Made by a program: the position numbers and the translations under genes. Shown in pieces: positions 25,049 to 34,516 of a DNA stretch of 64,000 nt (its first letter is position 1; each line of letters starts with the position of its first letter). The DNA comes from Actinomycetes bacterium (GTDB lineage: Bacteria > Actinomycetota > Acidimicrobiia > Acidimicrobiales > Palsa-688). The stretch is from NCBI GenBank assembly GCA_021850325.1, contig JAJZMF010000020.1:1-64000 (forward strand), given 5' to 3'. Below the pieces are notes generated by a model. The model did not search any database, had not been told where the DNA came from, and saw only the letters and a program-made list of their open reading frames with translations.

Positions 25049-26053
25049 CTAGTAGTGCCAGGGGTAGGGCGACCAGTCCGGTGGGCGTCGCTCGAGGAAC
25101 GAGTCACGGCCCTCGGCAGCCTCGTCCGTCATGTACCCGAGCCGCGTTGCCTCGCCTGCGAAGAGCTGCTGACCGACGAGGCCGTCGTCCACGAGGTTGA
25201 ACGCGTACTTGAGCATCCGCACGGACATAGGGCTCTTGGCGTTCACCGCCAACGCCCACTCGAGAGCAACCCGCTCGAGCTCCGCGTGAGGGACCACTGC
25301 GTTCACCATGCCCATGCGGTGGGCCTCGTCAGCGTCGTAGGTGTACCCCAGGAAGAAGATCTCCCTCGCCCGCTTCTGGCCCACCTGGCGGGCCAGATAG
25401 GCAGAGCCGTACCCGGCGTCGAAGCTGGCCACGTCGGCGTCCGTCTGACGGAAGCGAGCATGCTCCCGGCTGGCCAGCGTCAGGTCGCACACCACGTGCA
25501 GGCTGTGCCCTCCCCCGGCGGCCCAGCCGGGCACGACCGCGATAACCACCTTGGGCATGAACCTGATCAGGCGCTGCACCTCCAGGATGTGCAGCCTCCC
25601 CAGCCGGGCCCGCTCCATCGGCGAGCCTCCGCTGTCCGGAGGCCCCGGCACGTCTCCTCCCATGCCCGGCCCATCATCGGCGCCGGTGTTGCCGAGCCGC
25701 GCTCCACCCGCACCCGCACCTGCATCGGTGCGGTACTCGTAGCCCGCCTTGCCTCTCACCCTCTGGTCACCGCCGGAGCTGAACGCCCACCCGCCGTCCT
25801 TCGGGGACGGGCCGTTGCCCGTGACCAGGACGCAGCCCACGTCCGCCCATTGACGGGCATGCTCGAGCACCGTGCACAGCTCGTCGACGGTCTGGGGACG
25901 GAAGGCGTTCCGCACTTCAGGACGGTTGATCGCTACCCGCACCGTCCCCTGGTCCACCGCACGGTGGTAGGTGACGTCCTCCAGTTCGAAACCGGCGACG
26001 GGCTCCCACGCTGCCGGGTCGAACAGCTCCGACACAAAACCCTGCTCTTGCAC
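25049..26053 (-). CDS. menB: 1,4-dihydroxy-2-naphthoyl-CoA synthase
   Basis: A 334-residue crotonase-fold enzyme that closes the second ring in menaquinone biosynthesis from o-succinylbenzoyl-CoA. MenB landmarks are INRPEVRNAFRPQTVDEL, TGNGPSPKDGGWAFSSGGDQ and RVRG, then VVPGWAAGGGHSLHVVCDLT and FRQTDADVASFDAGYGSAYL. Residues ~105-150 form a Gly/Pro-rich insertion in the mobile loop near the active site, longer than usual. It starts with GTG at 26053, nine bases after the flavin oxidoreductase stop, so it appears cotranscribed with a phosphonate-type operon; no other men genes are in the window. Confidence 0.92.
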   Translation of the reverse strand: MQEQGFVSELFDPAAWEPVAGFELEDVTYHRAVDQGTVRVAINRPEVRNAFRPQTVDELCTVLEHARQWADVGCVLVTGNGPSPKDGGWAFSSGGDQRVRGKAGYEYRTDAGAGAGGARLGNTGADDGPGMGGDVPGPPDSGGSPMERARLGRLHILEVQRLIRFMPKVVIAVVPGWAAGGGHSLHVVCDLTLASREHARFRQTDADVASFDAGYGSAYLARQVGQKRAREIFFLGYTYDADEAHRMGMVNAVVPHAELERVALEWALAVNAKSPMSVRMLKYAFNLVDDGLVGQQLFAGEATRLGYMTDEAAEGRDSFLERRPPDWSPYPWHY

Positions 26054-26062
26054 CTGGCGAGC

Positions 26063-27388
26063 TTATGGCCTGCCCGTTGCTCCCGGCCACGGCACTGCCG
26101 CACCGGTCCGTGCAGCCCGGTCCGGGCCCACCGTGCCCTCCACGGCCGACCGCACGTCCTGAGCGGAGCCTCGCACACCCGCAGGGCCGGCAGACGGGGC
26201 CTCATCGAGCAGGCGGGCAATCGACACCTCGGCTATGGCTGGCGCACAGGTCATGCCACGGCCCCCCGGGCCGTTGACCACCTCGACACCGGCCAGGACC
26301 TCCTCGCGCCAGTACAGCTCGGCGCGCTTGTCCAATGTCTCGGCGTAGACGCCCGCCCAGCGCCGGCGCACCGGGGGGAGCGGCTGCCGGAGGAGGGATG
26401 CTGCTCTGCCGAGGAGGTGGTCGTAGAGGTCCTCTTCCAGGTCGAAGGGGAACGGCTCGTCGTACTCATGGGTGTCACCGATCGTGAGCCCACCGTCCAC
26501 TCGCTGCACCAGCAACAGTTGCGCCCCGGCCGCCCGAGCCGAGGACGGTTGCGGCGGCAGGTCCGCCAGAGCCGGCACGTCGTACGCCGGGTAGTACCGG
26601 AGCGAGTCGCCATCGGCCAGCGCCGGGCCCACCTCGCCCCTGTACGGCGTGGTCTCCAGCATCTGCAGGCGCACCCGCCTGGTCCGGGGGCGCTCGACGT
26701 ACCGGGAGAGCAACCCCGGCGTCGTCGCCCCTGTGCAGAGGTACACGTGGTCCCCACGGTGCCATTGGCCAAGGTCGTCGCACACCGCACCCGGTCCCAG
26801 GCCCACCACTTCGCGCGCCGGCACCCACGTGTACCGTGGCTGTCGCCGCAGGTGCTCCCGCAGGACGTGCACCGCCTGCCTGGGCTCCACCACGGCGTCA
26901 ACCGGGCAGTAGAGCGCTCCTGCCAGCTCCGGCGAGACCTCGGGGCAGAGGTCGACGGCCGCGCCCACCGAGAGCAGCTCCCATCGCCTGAGCGAGGTGC
27001 CCGCCGCCGAACAGGCCTCCCGCATCACCTCCAGCTCCTCCTGCGTGGCGGCGAGCGTGAGCGACCCGGAGGTCCTCAGGTGAAGTCCCTCTACGCTCAG
27101 CGCCACCTCTTCCCACAGACGCCTGCCGCGCAGGGCCAGCTCGAGATCGGCACCGGAAGCACGTCCGCTCACCCAGACCAGGCCGAAGTTGCGGGTACTT
27201 GCGCCGCGCGGCTCGATCTCCCGCTCGATGTGCACCACTTCCAAGCCCGCACCCACAGCCAGCAGCGCATGCATGGTGCCGATCACCCCGGCGCCCACGA
27301 CCACCACCCTGCCCCGGCTGCCCTGCCTCGGCCCGCTCCGCCCGCTGGCGAGCCCCGGGCCCACCCCGTCCTCGACCGCCACGGCCAC
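26063..27388 (-). CDS. FAD-dependent oxidoreductase, TIGR03364-like
   Basis: A 441-residue DAO-type flavoprotein. The dinucleotide motif is VVVVGAGVIGTMHALLA, followed by VVHIEREIEPRGASTRNFG, as in the TIGR03364 family that clusters with phosphonate catabolism genes. HVYLCTGATTPGLLS and VNGPGGRGMTCAPAIAEVSI near the C-terminus complete the FAD domain. Known relatives oxidatively deaminate N-methylated 2-aminoethylphosphonate or similar amines; the substrate here is inferred from context only. It starts with GTG at 27388, 21 bases after the transporter ATPase, so it belongs to that operon. The last ~45 residues are a disordered tail. Confidence 0.82.
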   Translation of the reverse strand: MAVAVEDGVGPGLASGRSGPRQGSRGRVVVVGAGVIGTMHALLAVGAGLEVVHIEREIEPRGASTRNFGLVWVSGRASGADLELALRGRRLWEEVALSVEGLHLRTSGSLTLAATQEELEVMREACSAAGTSLRRWELLSVGAAVDLCPEVSPELAGALYCPVDAVVEPRQAVHVLREHLRRQPRYTWVPAREVVGLGPGAVCDDLGQWHRGDHVYLCTGATTPGLLSRYVERPRTRRVRLQMLETTPYRGEVGPALADGDSLRYYPAYDVPALADLPPQPSSARAAGAQLLLVQRVDGGLTIGDTHEYDEPFPFDLEEDLYDHLLGRAASLLRQPLPPVRRRWAGVYAETLDKRAELYWREEVLAGVEVVNGPGGRGMTCAPAIAEVSIARLLDEAPSAGPAGVRGSAQDVRSAVEGTVGPDRAARTGAAVPWPGATGRP

Positions 27389-27409: not shown

Positions 27410-28609
27410 TCACAGGCCCTCGTCGTTGAGCGAGACCGCCTGGGGGCTCGTGTCCACAAGCACGCTCTCCGCACGGAGGCGCACCTCCACCGGCGAACCG
27501 GGAGGGGTCGCCGTGGCCGCACTGCTCGGGAGGTCCACCTTCACGGACAGGTCAGCCGAGACCAGCACGTCGGCCCGCGACTGGGCGCCCCGGAACGTGA
27601 CCGAGCTCACCATCGCTCTCGCCTCCGCAGCCACCGACACTTCGAGCTCCTCGGGCCGGACAAGCACATCCACCGCAGCACCCACCGGCGTGCCGGCGGG
27701 CAGGCCCCGGGCGGGGACTTCGCGGCCCAGCACCGCCACGCGACCGGCACCGGCGACCCTACCCGGGACCCGGTTCATGGTGCCGACGAACTCGGCCACA
27801 AACGGTGTCTCCGGCCGGTTGTAGAGCTCCGACGGGCTGGCCACCTGCTCGAGCCGGCCGTTGCGCATGACGGCTACCCGGTCGGCCAGCGACAACGCCT
27901 CGTCCTGGTCGTGGGTGACGAAGACGGTCGTTATGGCGAGGCGCTTCTGCAAGGCACGGATGTGCTCGCGCAGTTGGGAGCGCACCTTGGCGTCCAGGGC
28001 CGAGAGCGGTTCGTCGAGCAGCAGCACCCTCGGTTCGATGGCCAATGCCCGGGCCAGCGCCACCCTCTGCTGCTGCCCCCCCGACAGCTCGTGGGGGTAG
28101 TTGCCAGCACGGTCGGCCAGCTCCACCATCTCGAGCAGGCCCATCGCCAGGGAGCGCCGCTCGGCTGTGCCGACCTTGCGGAGCCGCAGGCCGAAGGCGA
28201 CGTTCTCCAGTGCCGTCATGTTCGGGAACAGGCTGTAGCTCTGGAAGACCATGCCCATGTTCCGTTTCTGCGCCGGGACGCCGACCACGTCCTGGCCCCC
28301 GACGACCACCCGGCCGGCCGACGGCTCCTGGAAGCCGGCCAGTATGCGCAGGGCTGTCGTCTTCCCACAGCCCGAGGGGCCGAGCAACGCCAGGAGCTCC
28401 CCGGGCCCGATGGCCAAGGAGAGCCCGTCCAGCGCCACAATGCTGCCGAAATAGCAGCTCAGCTCCACCAGTTCGACGGCCGTGCCGGCATGCCCGGCAT
28501 CAGCCGGCCTGCGCCCCGCACCCGCCGGCCCTACGAGCCTCACCGAGGTCGTGGGCGTCGAGCCGGTCCGTCCCGGCGAGCCGTCACCAGATTGGGAAAC
28601 GACCGTCAC
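27410..28609 (-). CDS. ABC importer ATPase (PhnT/PotA type)
   Basis: A 399-residue ATPase. Walker A is LGPSGCGKTTALRILAGF, the Q-loop FQSYSLFPNMTALENVAFGL, the signature ELSGGQQQRVALARALA, Walker B VLLLDEPLSALD and the H-loop FVTHDQDEAL. A C-terminal TOBE-type domain from ~residue 270 (VDVLVRPEELEV) places it with spermidine/2-aminoethylphosphonate/iron importers. GTG 28609 overlaps the permease stop (GTGA) and has AAGGAGG eight bases upstream. The first ~50 residues are a low-complexity extension. Confidence 0.92.
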   Translation of the reverse strand: MTVVSQSGDGSPGRTGSTPTTSVRLVGPAGAGRRPADAGHAGTAVELVELSCYFGSIVALDGLSLAIGPGELLALLGPSGCGKTTALRILAGFQEPSAGRVVVGGQDVVGVPAQKRNMGMVFQSYSLFPNMTALENVAFGLRLRKVGTAERRSLAMGLLEMVELADRAGNYPHELSGGQQQRVALARALAIEPRVLLLDEPLSALDAKVRSQLREHIRALQKRLAITTVFVTHDQDEALSLADRVAVMRNGRLEQVASPSELYNRPETPFVAEFVGTMNRVPGRVAGAGRVAVLGREVPARGLPAGTPVGAAVDVLVRPEELEVSVAAEARAMVSSVTFRGAQSRADVLVSADLSVKVDLPSSAATATPPGSPVEVRLRAESVLVDTSPQAVSLNDEGL

Positions 28610-29679
28610 GAGCGGCCTCCTTCGAGATCGTTGTCGCGCCGTTCCGCCACGACGGCGCTGCTCCACAGGTACGCTTTCTGCGCCCTGGCCGGGTCTGCCC
28701 CAAGCCCGCCAGCTCCCCCTGAGGCTCCCGCCAAGCCCGTACCGACCGGCGTTGTCGCCACGCGGCCGGCTCCCGCCGCCCGGCGCCACAGGCGCCGCCG
28801 GCCGGAACGACGGGGCCGGCCGATCATCGAGATGAGGAGGAGCACGACCCAGGTCAGCACCAGGGACATGAGTGAAGCGGCCTCGGACACATGGGAGTTG
28901 CTCTGGTCGAACAGCACTATCCAGGCGGGGAAGGTCGAGAACTGGTCCAGGCTGGCCATCGTGTACTCGCCCAGCACCAGGGCCACCGTGAGCACGGTTG
29001 CCGACAGCACAGCCGCCCTCAGGTTGGGCAAGAGCACCCGGCGCAGCATTGTCAGGGGCCCTGCGCCCAGCGAGCGCGATGCGTCCACCAGGGTACGGGC
29101 GTCGATGGCCCTCACGCCCGTGTCGAGCGCGCGCCAGGCAAAAGGCACAGCGAGCACCACGTACTCCAGCGCCAGCAGGAAGGGGCTCGCCTTCAGCCAC
29201 CCGGGCGCCACGTCCAGCACCCCGATAATGAGCACCACGGGCGGTATCACGATCGGGAGCGAGGTGACGAAGTCCATCACCCGGCGCACACGGGGGAGCT
29301 TGAGGTGCACGTAGAGCACGGTGGGCACCATCAGGGCCAACGTCACCCCTGTGGCCACCACCGCCAGTTGGACCGACAACCAGACGGCGGTCCCGAACCC
29401 CTGCTGGCCGCTCAATCCGGAGTAGGCCTGCAAGCTCCAACCGGCCCCGTCATAGGCCAGGCTGTAGCGCAGTCCCGCCCACAGCGGCACCAGGAAGTAG
29501 GCCCCGGCTACAACGAGCACAGCCAGGCGCCAGAACCTCACCCTGCCCCGTGCGGCCAGGGCCCGTTTGAGCCCCCGGGGGCGGCCGGTCCCGGTCCCGG
29601 GCGACCGCGCCCCCGGGACAGCACCGGGCTCTGCCTGTGCGCCGAAGCCCAGCCCCAGCGGGCTGGTGGTGGCGCTCAC
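28606..29679 (-). CDS. ABC importer permease 2 (PhnV-like)
   Basis: A 357-residue inner-membrane permease of the binding-protein-dependent family. After a Gly/Pro-rich cytoplasmic N-terminus there are about six spans (LAVLVVAGAYFLVPLWAGL, VVATGVTLALMVPTVLYV, IVIPPVVLIIGVLDV and others). The EAA-like coupling loop is DASRSLGAGPLTMLRRVLLP. The C-terminal ~60 residues are a basic tail. GTG 29679 overlaps the upstream permease stop. It pairs with the neighbouring permease and ATPase. Confidence 0.88.
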   Translation of the reverse strand: MSATTSPLGLGFGAQAEPGAVPGARSPGTGTGRPRGLKRALAARGRVRFWRLAVLVVAGAYFLVPLWAGLRYSLAYDGAGWSLQAYSGLSGQQGFGTAVWLSVQLAVVATGVTLALMVPTVLYVHLKLPRVRRVMDFVTSLPIVIPPVVLIIGVLDVAPGWLKASPFLLALEYVVLAVPFAWRALDTGVRAIDARTLVDASRSLGAGPLTMLRRVLLPNLRAAVLSATVLTVALVLGEYTMASLDQFSTFPAWIVLFDQSNSHVSEAASLMSLVLTWVVLLLISMIGRPRRSGRRRLWRRAAGAGRVATTPVGTGLAGASGGAGGLGADPARAQKAYLWSSAVVAERRDNDLEGGRS

Positions 29680-30686
29680 CTGAGCCACCTCGAGGCCCGC
29701 CGCTGGAGCAGGGCGTAGCCCACCATCACCACAGCCACGATCACGACCAGCCCGAAGGCCAGCGCATAGCCCACGTTCTGCTGCCCCGCCAGCACATTGC
29801 CGTTGAGGAAGCTGCCTATCTGCAGCGGCGTGAGCGCCAGCGTCCCTGCTGTCAGGGCCTGCGCCGTGGCATAGGCCGCCATGGCCCACCCGAAGAGCAG
29901 CAGGGTGGAGGCCAGGAGGGAGGGCATCAGTACAGGGATGCCGACATAACGCCAGTAGTGCCAGGACCTCGCACCGAGGCCACTGGCCGCCTCCTGCCAC
30001 GAGGGGCGCAGTGCCTCGAAGGCGGGCAGCACCACCAGGACCATCAGCGGTACCTGCCAGTACATGTAGACGAGAGCGACGCCCCAGAAGGAATAGAGCG
30101 TGAACCCGGTGCCGTAGAGGTTCAACCCGATGGCGTTCAACCAGTTGGTCACCAGCGACGTCTCCGCGCCCACCGAGGCAATGAAGAGGAACGCCAGCGG
30201 CACGCCGCCGAAGTTGGCCAGCACCCCGGCCGCGGTCACAATGGCCCGGCGAAAGCCGGCCCGGGGGGACGTGTGGACGGCATAAGCCAGGACGGCCCCA
30301 CAGATCGCAGGGACGACCGAAGTTATGAGAGCAAGTTCCAGTGTGTTCTCGAAGCCCTGCAGGTACACCCCGGTGGTGGCAGCCCGCAGGTTGTACAGCG
30401 TGAAGCCGCCCGAGGAGCCTTCGAAGGCCGCAACACCCACCGCACCGGCAGGCACACCGAGGAAAAGGAGCATCCAGGCCCAGAAAGGCACGAGAGGGAG
30501 CCAGTCCCGGGCACCGGGGCGCAGGCGCCGCGGCAGGGGGATCCCAGCCCGCCGCTCCCGGTGCTCGGCGCCGGCTCGCCGGCTGCCCGGCCCACGCCCC
30601 GGCCGGGCCGGAGCCGGCGGGGCTACTGGGGTGGCCCCTCCCGGCTCCTGCAGGAACGGCGTACCAGCCGGTGGTTCAGCTGGCAA
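29676..30686 (-). CDS. ABC importer permease 1 (PhnU-like)
   Basis: A 336-residue permease with about six spans (VPFWAWMLLFLGVPAGAVGVA, LALITSVVPAICGAVLAYAV, VPLMVLVVLPAFEAL and others). The coupling loop is EAASGLGARSWHYWRYVGIP. The first ~60 residues are Pro/Arg-rich. The assumed TTG start at 30686 overlaps the binding-protein stop by 11 bases; a start further in is possible. It sits between binding protein and second permease in one operon. Confidence 0.86.
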   Translation of the reverse strand: MPAEPPAGTPFLQEPGGATPVAPPAPARPGRGPGSRRAGAEHRERRAGIPLPRRLRPGARDWLPLVPFWAWMLLFLGVPAGAVGVAAFEGSSGGFTLYNLRAATTGVYLQGFENTLELALITSVVPAICGAVLAYAVHTSPRAGFRRAIVTAAGVLANFGGVPLAFLFIASVGAETSLVTNWLNAIGLNLYGTGFTLYSFWGVALVYMYWQVPLMVLVVLPAFEALRPSWQEAASGLGARSWHYWRYVGIPVLMPSLLASTLLLFGWAMAAYATAQALTAGTLALTPLQIGSFLNGNVLAGQQNVGYALAFGLVVIVAVVMVGYALLQRRASRWLR

Positions 30687-31815
30687 CTTTGATCGACCAC
30701 TCCTTGGCCACGACGTTCTCGGCCTGGGCCGTCTGGGCGCTGGTGGGGTACCCCTTGAAGCCGCTGGGTACCGGGGGCAGTGCCTTGAGCGCGGCCTGGT
30801 CCACGGTGCCGTTCTTGATCATGGAGGGCAGCTCGATGGGACGGCAGTAGCCCTGCAGCCACTGGTTCTGGCCCGCCACCGAGTACAGGTACTCCTCCCA
30901 CAGGCGGGCGGCCGCCGGGTCGGGGGCGTTGGCCGAGATGGCCTGGTCGTAGTAGGACGCGTAGATACCGTCCGAGGGGATGACGACCTTCCAGGTCTTC
31001 ACCTCGGGGGCGATCTCGGAGGCCTGGAGGTAGTCCCACCAGATCACGATGGGCGTGGCGCCGCTCTGCACCGTTGACGGCCCGGCGACCACAGGCACGA
31101 AGTTGCCCTCTTTGTTGAGCTTCTGGAAGTAGGCCACACCGGGCGCTATGTTGCCGAACGAGCCACCGTTGGCCAGAGCGGCCGCGTACACGGCGGCGAA
31201 CGCAGCCCCGGCCACCGTGGGGCTGTTGTTGATCCCCACCATGTGCTTGTAGACGGGCTTCAACAGGTCCTTGAAGGTCTTGGGCGGCGTCTTCACGACG
31301 GCGGAGTTGTAGCCGATGGCCACGTAGCCTCCGTAGTCGGCCCACCAAGAGGCGTCGTTCGCCTTCTGGGCACCCGGGATGGCAGCCCAGCTCGAAACCC
31401 GGTAGTGCGCCAGCAGGTGCTGCTGGTCGGCCTTGATCGCGAACGGTGTGCCCATGTCGAGCACGTCCGGCTCGCGGCTCTGGCCCTTGAACTGGACCAT
31501 GGCATTGATCTCGTCCTGGCTGCTGCCCTCGGGGTTCTCGCTCGTGATGGAGATCCCGTACTTCTTGGAGAAGGTGCTGAGGATCGTCCCGTAGTTGCAC
31601 CAGTTGTTGGGCAGGGTGATGACGTTCAGGTGGCCCTCGGCCTTGGCTGCCTTCACCAGCCCGGCCATGCCGCCGAAGGCGGCGACAGAAGTGGCGTCCT
31701 GGTACTTGGAGGCGGCGCTGGCCGGGCCGGCGCCTGCCATCAACGATGTGGCGCAGGTGGCCAGTGCTGCTGCGGCGGACGTGACCCGCACAACGCTTCG
31801 GCGGTCGGTCTTCAT
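30676..31815 (-). CDS. ABC importer substrate-binding protein (PhnS-like)
   Basis: A 379-residue periplasmic-type binding protein. The N-terminus MKTDRRSVVRVTSAAAALA with an ASA cleavage-like site near residue 37 suggests export. The mature part (VITLPNNWCNYGTILSTFSK, DVLDMGTPFAIKADQQ, IWWDYLQASEIAPEVKTW) belongs to the spermidine/putrescine-2-aminoethylphosphonate class. ATG 31815 has a GGAGA site. It heads the operon with two permeases, an ATPase, a flavin oxidoreductase and menB. With a phosphonate hydrolase upstream, 2-aminoethylphosphonate or a related compound is the best guess for the ligand. Confidence 0.85.
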   Translation of the reverse strand: MKTDRRSVVRVTSAAAALATCATSLMAGAGPASAASKYQDATSVAAFGGMAGLVKAAKAEGHLNVITLPNNWCNYGTILSTFSKKYGISITSENPEGSSQDEINAMVQFKGQSREPDVLDMGTPFAIKADQQHLLAHYRVSSWAAIPGAQKANDASWWADYGGYVAIGYNSAVVKTPPKTFKDLLKPVYKHMVGINNSPTVAGAAFAAVYAAALANGGSFGNIAPGVAYFQKLNKEGNFVPVVAGPSTVQSGATPIVIWWDYLQASEIAPEVKTWKVVIPSDGIYASYYDQAISANAPDPAAARLWEEYLYSVAGQNQWLQGYCRPIELPSMIKNGTVDQAALKALPPVPSGFKGYPTSAQTAQAENVVAKEWSIKVAS

Positions 31816-31940
31816 GGTGCTTGTCTCCTGGTTCTCCCAACCCCTTCGGGGGCTGGGCCCGGTGCGCATTGGTGAGCTCAGGGGCCCTTGCGGCCCCCTG
31901 GAGAGGGCCGCTCGTGAGGAGACGATATGCAGGCACCTTG

Positions 31941-31973: not shown

Positions 31974-32008
31974 AACTTTGGGCGGCATCTGGCCGGCACA
32001 GCTGCCTC

Positions 32009-32088
32009 GGCCCGTGCGCCCCTGCCCCGGCCCGTGCGCCCCTGCCCCGGCCCGTGCGCCCCTGCCCCGGCCCGTGTGCCCCTGCCCC
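32009..32088. repeat. Four tandem 20-bp repeats
   Basis: Four head-to-tail copies of GGCCCGTGCGCCCCTGCCCC, the last with one change (GTGTGCC). They sit in the 348-base gap between the HD-protein gene and the importer operon, which has no gene. Downstream to 32163 (the HD gene's 3' end) the sequence stays low-complexity (CTCGGGCC motifs). Confidence 0.85.
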
Positions 32089-32163
32089 GGACAGCGCCCG
32101 TCCGTCCGGCACGAACCCCCAGCCCGCCTCGGGCCTGCCCTCGGGCCCGCCTCGGGCCTGGCC

Positions 32164-32739
32164 TCAGGCCACCCCTGGGAGCACGGCAGGGTCGCCCCCG
32201 GTAGCGGGCAGCGAGGCGAGAAGAGGCGCCAGTTCGCCCAGCACCTCGGGCAGGCTCGAGGTGCGCGCCCGAGGCGCCTTCGCCTCCTCGTCCCATCGGC
32301 ACAGGCGCAGCGCGTCCCCCCAGCGGGGGTGGGCCACCAGGTGCTCCAGGGACAGCTCCCAGCCCGTCTCGCCCTCCCGGCCGGCCCTGCCCGAGGGGCC
32401 GAGCAGGTACAGCTTGGCCGGCGCCTGCGCCATGACGAGCCAGGCGACCTCGAGGCCCAGGCGCTCCCTGGCCCACCGGGCGCCCACGACCTCGGGGGGC
32501 GCCAGCGGCGCCGCCGCCCTCAACCCGGCGTGGTGCCCGAAGCCGTGCACCAGCGCAGCAGCCACCAGTTCCGCCCCCGCCCCCTCCTCGACGGCCAGGC
32601 TGGCGCACTGCAGGGCGTGCACCGCCGCGTCCTGGGGGCAACAGGGGCTGGCAACCCCCTCCATCTCCCCCAGCATGTGGTACAGGTCGGCCACCACCTC
32701 GTCCCGCCCGCGCCGGTGACGGCGCTTGTTCAGCGCCAC
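32164..32739 (-). CDS. PhnZ/TIGR03276-type HD protein with missing metal ligands
   Basis: A 191-residue protein resembling the HD-domain proteins of phosphonate operons, which include the diiron oxygenase PhnZ. Family landmarks are VHALQCASLAVEEGAGAELV (His41), AALVHGFGHHAG, VVGARWARERLG, APAKLYL and LRLCRWDEEAK (Asp150). The HD pair is HG (Asp replaced by Gly66), the usual His of HEEVGA is Pro82, and the His of HVAAK is Gln105. So about three of six expected metal ligands are absent, and C-C bond oxygenase activity is unlikely. GTG 32739 overlaps the hydrolase stop by ten bases with GGGGAG upstream. A regulatory or scaffold role, or decay, is possible. Confidence 0.75.
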   Translation of the reverse strand: MALNKRRHRRGRDEVVADLYHMLGEMEGVASPCCPQDAAVHALQCASLAVEEGAGAELVAAALVHGFGHHAGLRAAAPLAPPEVVGARWARERLGLEVAWLVMAQAPAKLYLLGPSGRAGREGETGWELSLEHLVAHPRWGDALRLCRWDEEAKAPRARTSSLPEVLGELAPLLASLPATGGDPAVLPGVA

Positions 32740-34277
32740 GGGTCGCTCCCCCACACCGGGCCCAGCCCGGGGTCGAGGAAGCAGTCGGCCAGGGCGCGGT
32801 CGAGGTTCCTGGCCCTCCAGCGCAACAGTTCCTGTGCCCGCTCCAGGGCCCGTTCAGCGGCGCCCGCCGCCCCCTCGGCCAGCAGGTCGTGGGTGTGGCC
32901 TGGGCTCTCCTCCAGGTCGAACAGCATGGGCGGCAGTACTTCGGGATCCGCTGCGAACTGGACGTACTTGGTCGACGCCGAGCGGCTGACGGCCAGCGAG
33001 CAGTGGGCGCTCGGGATGCCCAAGCGCTCCTCGGCCCAACGCTTGTGGACGTGGCGGAAGTCCCACTCGAAGTGGACGGCCGACCTCCAGTGCTCAGGGA
33101 CGTGGTCCCCTTCCACCAGGGGCATCAACGACCAGCCGTCGAACTGGCGGTCCGGCTCCAGGCCCAGCCAGTCGACGATGGTGGGCGCCAGGTCGACCGA
33201 CTCGGTGGGCACCCGGACGACAGCACCCCGTCGGCCCTCGGCCAGGTACGGGTCCCTTACCACCAGGGGCACATGGAAGCTCTCGTCCCAGTAGCCGCAC
33301 TTGTCCACCAGCCAGTGGTCCCCGCCCATCTCGCCGTGGTCACTGCTCAGCACCACGAGCGTGCTGGCGGCGAGGCCGGTCCGCTCCAGGTGGTCCAGCA
33401 GCCTGCCCAGCTGGTCGTCCACCTCGGCCTGGGCCCCGTAGTAGGTGGCCCGTAACTGGCGCCGCTCACGCTCGTCCAGAGGGGCGGCGGTGTGGGGCAG
33501 GGACATCAGCAACCGGTTGAGAGGATGGGCCGCCGCCTGGTCGGCCGGGCTCGCGTGCCCGGCAAAAGGGCCGACGTCGCGCTCGTCGTACAGGTCGTGG
33601 TAGCCGACCGGGTTGCGCCTCGGCGGATGGGGCCGGAGATAGGACAGGTGCACGAAGAAGGGCGAGGCGGCGTTCTCGTCCAGCCACCGGGTCACCTTCT
33701 CGGTCAGGAAGGCTGTGTCCGACAGCTCAGCCGGGAAGCGGGCCGGGGCCCAGGTCGAGGCGTGCTCGTCCGCCCCCGGGAAGGACATGTCCGGCTCGTA
33801 GAGCGCCAGCGGGAACGAAGGGACGTCGACGCCGTGCGCCGACAGCCACCTCCCCCACTCGGTGCCACCCTGCTCCCAGGGGTCGTTCACGACCACGTCG
33901 AAGCCGGGCAGCACACCCTCGTAGGTCATGGTGCGGGGGTCTCCCACCGGAAGGCCCCGGGGGTCGGCGCTGGTGTCGGTGTAGCCGAAGAGCACCGGCC
34001 GGTAGCCGGCCCGTCGGGCCTCGAGGGCCACATTGGTGAACCGGGTACTGAGGGGGGTGCCGTTGGTGACCGAGCGGTGGTTCTGCATGTACATGCCCGT
34101 GTACATGCACGCCCGGCTGGGCCCACAGGGGGCGGCGTTGGCCCAGTGGTCGGCGAAGGTCACCCCCTCCGCGGCCAGGCGGTCGATGTTGGGCGTGCGC
34201 ACCAGGGGGTGGCCAAGGTGGGACAGGCAGTCCCCCCTCCACTGGTCCACCGTTATGAACAGCACGTTGCGCTGCAC
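32730..34277 (-). CDS. Phosphonate monoester hydrolase / sulfatase family enzyme
   Basis: A 515-residue alkaline-phosphatase superfamily hydrolase. VLFITVDQWRGD supplies the first metal-binding Asp. NAAPCGPSRACMYTGMY holds Cys51, which in this family is converted to formylglycine, with the CxPSR sulfatase signature. LSSDHGEMGGDHWLVDKCGYWDES carries the second metal site. The pattern is closest to phosphonate monoester hydrolases (PehA type), which cleave phosphonate and phosphate esters and some sulfates. Activation needs a formylglycine-generating enzyme, not seen in the window. GTG 34277 is chosen for GAGGAGG nine bases upstream. It is followed by the overlapping HD gene. Confidence 0.85.
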   Translation of the reverse strand: MQRNVLFITVDQWRGDCLSHLGHPLVRTPNIDRLAAEGVTFADHWANAAPCGPSRACMYTGMYMQNHRSVTNGTPLSTRFTNVALEARRAGYRPVLFGYTDTSADPRGLPVGDPRTMTYEGVLPGFDVVVNDPWEQGGTEWGRWLSAHGVDVPSFPLALYEPDMSFPGADEHASTWAPARFPAELSDTAFLTEKVTRWLDENAASPFFVHLSYLRPHPPRRNPVGYHDLYDERDVGPFAGHASPADQAAAHPLNRLLMSLPHTAAPLDERERRQLRATYYGAQAEVDDQLGRLLDHLERTGLAASTLVVLSSDHGEMGGDHWLVDKCGYWDESFHVPLVVRDPYLAEGRRGAVVRVPTESVDLAPTIVDWLGLEPDRQFDGWSLMPLVEGDHVPEHWRSAVHFEWDFRHVHKRWAEERLGIPSAHCSLAVSRSASTKYVQFAADPEVLPPMLFDLEESPGHTHDLLAEGAAGAAERALERAQELLRWRARNLDRALADCFLDPGLGPVWGSDPWR

Positions 34278-34516
34278 TGAGCCGTACCTCCTCGGGGCTG
34301 GCGGGCACACGAGGCGGGGCCGGCACAGCCGGCTTCAGACGCCGACGAGCCCGTGCCGGGAGCTGGCCCCGCCCGGCTCGAGCCTCGTGAGCCGCACCCA
34401 GCAGCTGCTCGAGCGGGCTCAGGCTAATGGGGCCGACTTAACGACGGGTGAACCAGGAGCGGCCGGGACGTGCCCGGGGGGTGAAGCCGGCTCGAACGGC
34501 GGTCAGGCCAGCCCGT

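Follow-up and report, generated by a model that had tools for sequence, protein, structure and literature searches.

Background

HD oxygenases bind two irons through an H...HD...H...H...D ligand set in which the first aspartate is bridging, and for YqeK, another HD protein, the middle pair of histidines is said to serve the second metal (PMC8177086). PhnZ (PDB 4MLM, 4MLN and 4N71) and TmpB (6NPA) are HD-domain, mixed-valent di-iron phosphonate oxygenases. In Achromobacter, oxygenases of family TIGR03276 (PhnHD) are encoded in clusters linked to HpnW, and their oxidative route is described as one that the phosphonatase pathway would make redundant (PMC11203657). PbfD-type FAD enzymes, including a member of TIGR03364, convert aminoethylphosphonates to phosphonoacetaldehyde, which is the substrate of PhnX (PMC10590968). 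In the literature that we searched, no derivative of the PhnZ oxygenases was reported that is non-catalytic or binds a single metal.

In this report, we analyzed an HD protein encoded within a phosphonate operon on a 64,000-nucleotide stretch of actinomycete DNA, hereafter the window. Our main finding is that this protein lacks exactly half of the metal ligands of its family, and that its gene is the only accelerated one among the operon genes compared. On balance, we lean towards reading the gene as a degenerating, redundant di-iron phosphonate oxygenase of the PhnZ/TmpB type (TIGR03276-like), under relaxed selection after a rearrangement of the pathway.

Results

Gene and operon

Features of the locus are collected in Table 1. 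The longest reading frame of the HD gene begins at a GTG at 32754 (32164-32754, minus strand) and is open down to an intact stop; the likely start is a second GTG, which has a GGGGGAG motif a few bases upstream and overlaps the stop codon of the hydrolase gene (32730-32732) by 10 nt, and the product is thus 191 to 196 amino acids long. The original prediction of an intact frame overlapping an intact hydrolase gene therefore holds. G+C content at the three codon positions (0.83/0.55/0.92 over the whole length) indicates a coding sequence and matches that of intact homologues, for example 0.83/0.54/0.92 in L007. Two large plus-strand reading frames over the gene (32054-32719 and 31978-33294) were rejected as G+C artefacts, the periodicity following the minus-strand HD frame. 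The spacer downstream of the gene includes two G+C-rich tandem-repeat arrays (32002-32170; a 20-bp unit repeated 4.4 times and a 23-bp unit repeated 2.1 times), the second of which extends into the HD stop codon.

The HD gene is accompanied by an ABC transporter of the 2-aminoethylphosphonate type and by a TIGR03364 oxidoreductase, and its neighbourhood is thus that of a phosphonate operon. Directly after the oxidoreductase (HpnW) gene, on the same strand, lies a menB-like gene for 1,4-dihydroxy-2-naphthoyl-CoA synthase (25052-26053), which looks unrelated to phosphonate use.

Table 1. Coordinates, in the window, of the operon genes and of the ligand positions of the HD protein
Feature	Coordinates	Strand	Basis or remark
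PhnZ/TmpB-like HD protein, three of six di-iron ligands lost	32164..32739	-	GTG start 32739
Kept ligand His: PhnZ H34 = H46	32617..32619	-	alignment
Kept ligand His: PhnZ H58 = H70	32545..32547	-	alignment
Lost bridging Asp: PhnZ D59 to Gly71, codon GGC	32542..32544	-	alignment
Lost second-metal His: PhnZ H80 to Pro87, codon CCC	32494..32496	-	alignment
Lost second-metal His: PhnZ H104 to Gln110, codon CAG	32425..32427	-	alignment
Region of the deleted or replaced substrate helix (...Y..LSxxSxxSLxxQGG), residues ~118-132	32359..32403	-	low model confidence
Kept ligand Asp: PhnZ D161 = D155	32290..32292	-	alignment
PehA-like phosphoric/sulfuric ester hydrolase, intact, operon head	32730..34310	-	
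2-Aminoethylphosphonate-type ABC substrate-binding protein (SBP)	30676..31869	-	
ABC permease 1 (PhnU/CysT type)	29676..30686	-	
ABC permease 2	28606..29601	-	start approximate
PhnT2-like ABC ATPase	27410..28600	-	start approximate
TIGR03364 (HpnW/PbfD-type) FAD-dependent oxidoreductase	26063..27388	-	above family cut-off

Family and fold

The HD protein shares descent and fold with the TIGR03276/PhnZ-type HD oxygenases. Its best solved relative is PhnZ (4mlm; E = 1.7e-4 with phmmer), the match to TmpB being weaker (E = 0.09), and its best family match is TIGR03276 (E = 1e-12), at 47.8 bits, below the curated cut-off of 214.6; in the genome search it scored 32.4 bits and was the sole match to this family in the window genome. 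A Pfam search of the protein gave no match. In a maximum-likelihood tree it forms a clade with L003 and L006 (support 100/96). The AlphaFold2 model has a PhnZ fold (pLDDT 88.3, pTM 0.83), although, as intact homologues were in the alignment, the procedure favours that fold and the model is not independent evidence of folding; its best PDB matches with Foldseek are PhnZ and TmpB (TM 0.66-0.71; 0.69 for 4n6w). In sequence and predicted fold the protein thus resembles PhnZ and TmpB, with which it also shares the setting in a phosphonate operon, three of the six ligands and the active-site Lys; what it lacks by comparison are the two Fe2 histidines, the bridging Asp, the Ser/Ser/Gln helix and, in the YxxE loop, the substrate Glu. 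It is linked to HpnW as TIGR03276 oxygenases are; unlike them, it scores far under the cut-off and has only three of the five histidines invariant in the clade.

Metal ligands and substrate pocket

We aligned the protein with 106 homologues, which came from a search of the order and from scanning about 85,000 species genomes; ligands are labelled by PhnZ numbering and residues of the query by that of its 196-residue reading frame. The assignment of each PhnZ residue to a metal goes in part beyond the text of the review from which the ligand set was taken and follows the PhnZ structure, as does the substrate-binding role given to the Ser/Ser/Gln helix.

Three of the six ligands are kept and exactly three are lost, in agreement with the original prediction that about half had gone (HD to HG, the next His to Pro, and the His of HVAAK to Gln). 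These positions are nearly invariant elsewhere: H58, D59 and H104 are present in all 106 homologues and H80 in 105, and H34 and D161 are each gapped in one row. The sole other ligand substitution is a Tyr at H80 in an HD homologue of Streptomyces violaceusniger (L079 9001-9429). The combined D59G, H80P and H104Q losses occur in none of the aligned homologues; the search within the family covered 32 genomes. No register shift in the alignment would let other parts of the chain supply the ligands; an additional His, H75, is without a common counterpart in the family.

The loss extends to the substrate pocket, which the prediction had missed. S36-P-C-C39 replaces the YxxE loop, the substrate Glu (E27) becoming Cys; an Arg conserved at 98% is also changed to Cys; and the Ser/Ser/Gln helix is replaced or deleted, helix 124-134 of the model of the intact protein from G015 (a genome of the same family) being absent or of low confidence in that of the HD protein. 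K108 and K165 are kept, beside H34, H58 and D161. Of the 22 columns with at least 95% conservation, the HD protein departs at 10 and its homologues at 0 to 4, except for L005 and L030, whose rows look like a different HD subfamily. Because both ligands and substrate residues are missing, the protein has almost certainly lost its oxygenase chemistry.

The three lost ligands, namely the bridging Asp and both histidines of the second metal, make up exactly the second-metal set, and what is left is a 2-His/1-Asp triad; had three of six been lost at random, exactly this pattern would arise 1 time in 20. A repurposed metalloprotein is therefore conceivable, in which loss of the second metal left a mononuclear site (H46, H70 and D155) serving a new reaction or metal sensing. 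The retention of precisely the non-bridging first-metal ligands, together with the accelerated rate of the gene described below, agrees with this idea, but the substrate Glu, the substrate helix and the conserved Arg were lost as well, the HD Asp persists in the mononuclear HD sites that are known, and the pattern is found in a single sequence; we consider it quite improbable.

Evolutionary rate and neutral expectation

The end branch of the HD gene is the longest in the maximum-likelihood tree (1.66, against 0.46 in G015 and 0.96 in G392, which make up the rest of its clade). In Tajima relative-rate tests of the window genome against G015, with G392 (same order) as the outgroup, the HD gene has 35 unique changes against 7 in G015 (p = 1.5e-5); the counts for its neighbours are 36/32 (SBP), 22/28 (permease 1), 19/19 (permease 2), 16/18 (ATPase) and 32/27 (HpnW), with p = 0.48-1.0. 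Since these five neighbours are clock-like and the HD gene is asymmetric, the acceleration is private to the HD gene within the operon.

The same data bear on whether the substitutions are an error of sequencing, assembly or binning, which a single genome in a draft assembly of 49 contigs might invite. The losses lie scattered along the chain, codon periodicity is intact and the frame unbroken, each of the three ligand changes is a substitution of its own without any sign of compensating frameshifts, and the neighbouring genes are clock-like; we regard such an error as highly improbable.

A rate elevated over that of linked genes is a mark of a pseudogene. The HD gene does not have another such mark, a disrupted frame, which is weak evidence given neutral simulations. 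In these, about 28 excess amino-acid changes (45 as the upper case) were placed on the gene of an intact relative, as substitutions only and without indels; at 77% G+C, the frame remained free of stop codons in 25-60% of runs. An intact frame is thus no proof of function, and the original argument that it speaks against decay loses its support, all the more as the HD gene alone is accelerated. The hydrophobic core is kept at 26 of 31 columns, with gaps in the alignment accounting for three of the five departures; as simulated neutral retention is similar, core retention does not discriminate. Among sites conserved in the clade, 8 of 13 active-site positions were lost (5 kept) and 30 of 74 others (44 kept; Fisher p = 0.23): losses hit active-site and other conserved sites alike, without significant concentration.

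These results weigh on the main rival to decay, a maintained pseudoenzyme, that is, a folded HD scaffold retained for binding to a protein or a phosphonate and tuning, for example, the FAD oxidase or the hydrolase of the overlapping gene. The same pathway offers a precedent: PcrP (PA2803), an inactive relative of phosphonatase, binds proteins (PMC12632274; NCBIfam NF053741). Like the HD protein, PcrP derives from an enzyme of phosphonate degradation; it has a HAD fold, belongs to a subfamily of high sequence conservation and has demonstrated protein binding (PMC12632274), whereas the HD protein has a different fold and is a single sequence. The intact reading frame, start and hydrolase overlap, the undrifted composition by codon position, the confidently predicted PhnZ fold and the retention of H34, H58, K108, D161 and K165 would all suit such a scaffold. 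On the other side, frame and core would be retained under neutrality too, catalytic sites have not taken a disproportionate share of the changes, the same substitutions recur in no second genome (106 homologues; 32 family genomes), and a related cassette in G006 has no HD gene. We judge the maintained pseudoenzyme possible but unlikely. Of the non-catalytic role that was first proposed, the loss of catalysis is thus upheld, and its retention finds nothing in its favour beyond the intact overlapping frame.

Related genomes and the wider pathway

The closest relatives of the HD protein are those of G015 (G015:C141; L003/L072) and G392 (G392:C131; L006/L082), at 47% and 37% identity; in contrast to it, both have all six ligands. 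In these genomes the intact HD gene accompanies the same transporter and HpnW and adjoins a TIGR03351 PhnX-like HAD gene, and tblastn detected no PehA-like hydrolase in the stretch read around the cassette. The window genome, a draft assembly, yielded no TIGR03351 HAD gene. It encodes a phnW-phnX pair elsewhere (L191 8006-10006; contig C15 of G000, ~74005-76005), both genes being above family cut-offs (PhnX 336.9 bits, cut-off 220); no PhnX above cut-off was found in the draft genomes G014, G015, G006 and G392. C-P lyase was rejected as a replacement route, no PhnJ being present in any of the five genomes.

G006 has one orthologous transporter cassette without HD and HpnW genes, and a second cassette with the hydrolase (68% identity) and no HD gene, which implies that the HD module is separable from the transporter cassette. 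Upstream of the orthologous cassette (G006:C47), a 42-bp stretch (L156 9176-9217) matches the beginning of the PehA-like hydrolase at 79% identity; this is possibly a deletion remnant, though short enough for chance. In G014, the nearest relative within the genus of the window genome, the contig begins within permease 1 and so does not reach the hydrolase-HD-SBP junction, and the upstream SBP is also missing from the assembly; with a further genome of the genus (G013) 61% complete, the genus gave no information on the junction. HpnW of G014 (L062 3056-4249) is 63% identical to that of the window, against 78-89% for the adjacent transporter proteins, which suggests exchange or faster divergence.

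Discussion

Relaxed selection after pathway rearrangement is, for this one sequence, the most economical account. The operon of aminophosphonate uptake and oxidation would have been rebuilt such that the oxygenase became dispensable: the TIGR03351 PhnX-like HAD hydrolase, formerly the neighbour of the HD gene, appears to be gone, and a PehA-like ester hydrolase has come to stand at the operon head. Phosphonoacetaldehyde, the expected product of the FAD enzyme, could be cleaved by the PhnX encoded with PhnW elsewhere in the genome, and selection on HD catalysis would then have relaxed. Translation of the gene probably continues, coupled to the hydrolase, and its product may still be folded and catalytically dead; at high G+C, relaxation may have been too short for a stop codon to arise.

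Consistent with decay are the acceleration of the HD gene alone, its longest branch, the similar incidence of changes at active-site and other conserved positions, the missing or low-confidence substrate helix, the lack of these substitutions in any other genome searched, the absence of TIGR03351, the presence of phnW-phnX and the HD-free cassette of G006. Counting against it, besides the features that would suit a scaffold, are the ribosome-binding site and the precision with which the second-metal set was lost; moreover, accelerated evolution can also mean adaptation, and the genomes in which PhnX or TIGR03351 was not found are drafts. It is rather doubtful that the protein is maintained, either repurposed with a mononuclear 2-His/1-Asp site or as a metal-free phosphonate-binding regulator co-translated with the PehA-like hydrolase.

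Should it prove to be maintained, it would represent a pseudoenzyme, or a derivative with a single metal, in a family that otherwise keeps its six ligands almost without exception (106 homologues), and would warn against annotation as an oxygenase. If decay is the true reading, a C-P-cleaving oxygenase is being discarded where a hydrolytic phnW-phnX route exists, which would be a concrete case of pathway replacement in phosphonate metabolism.
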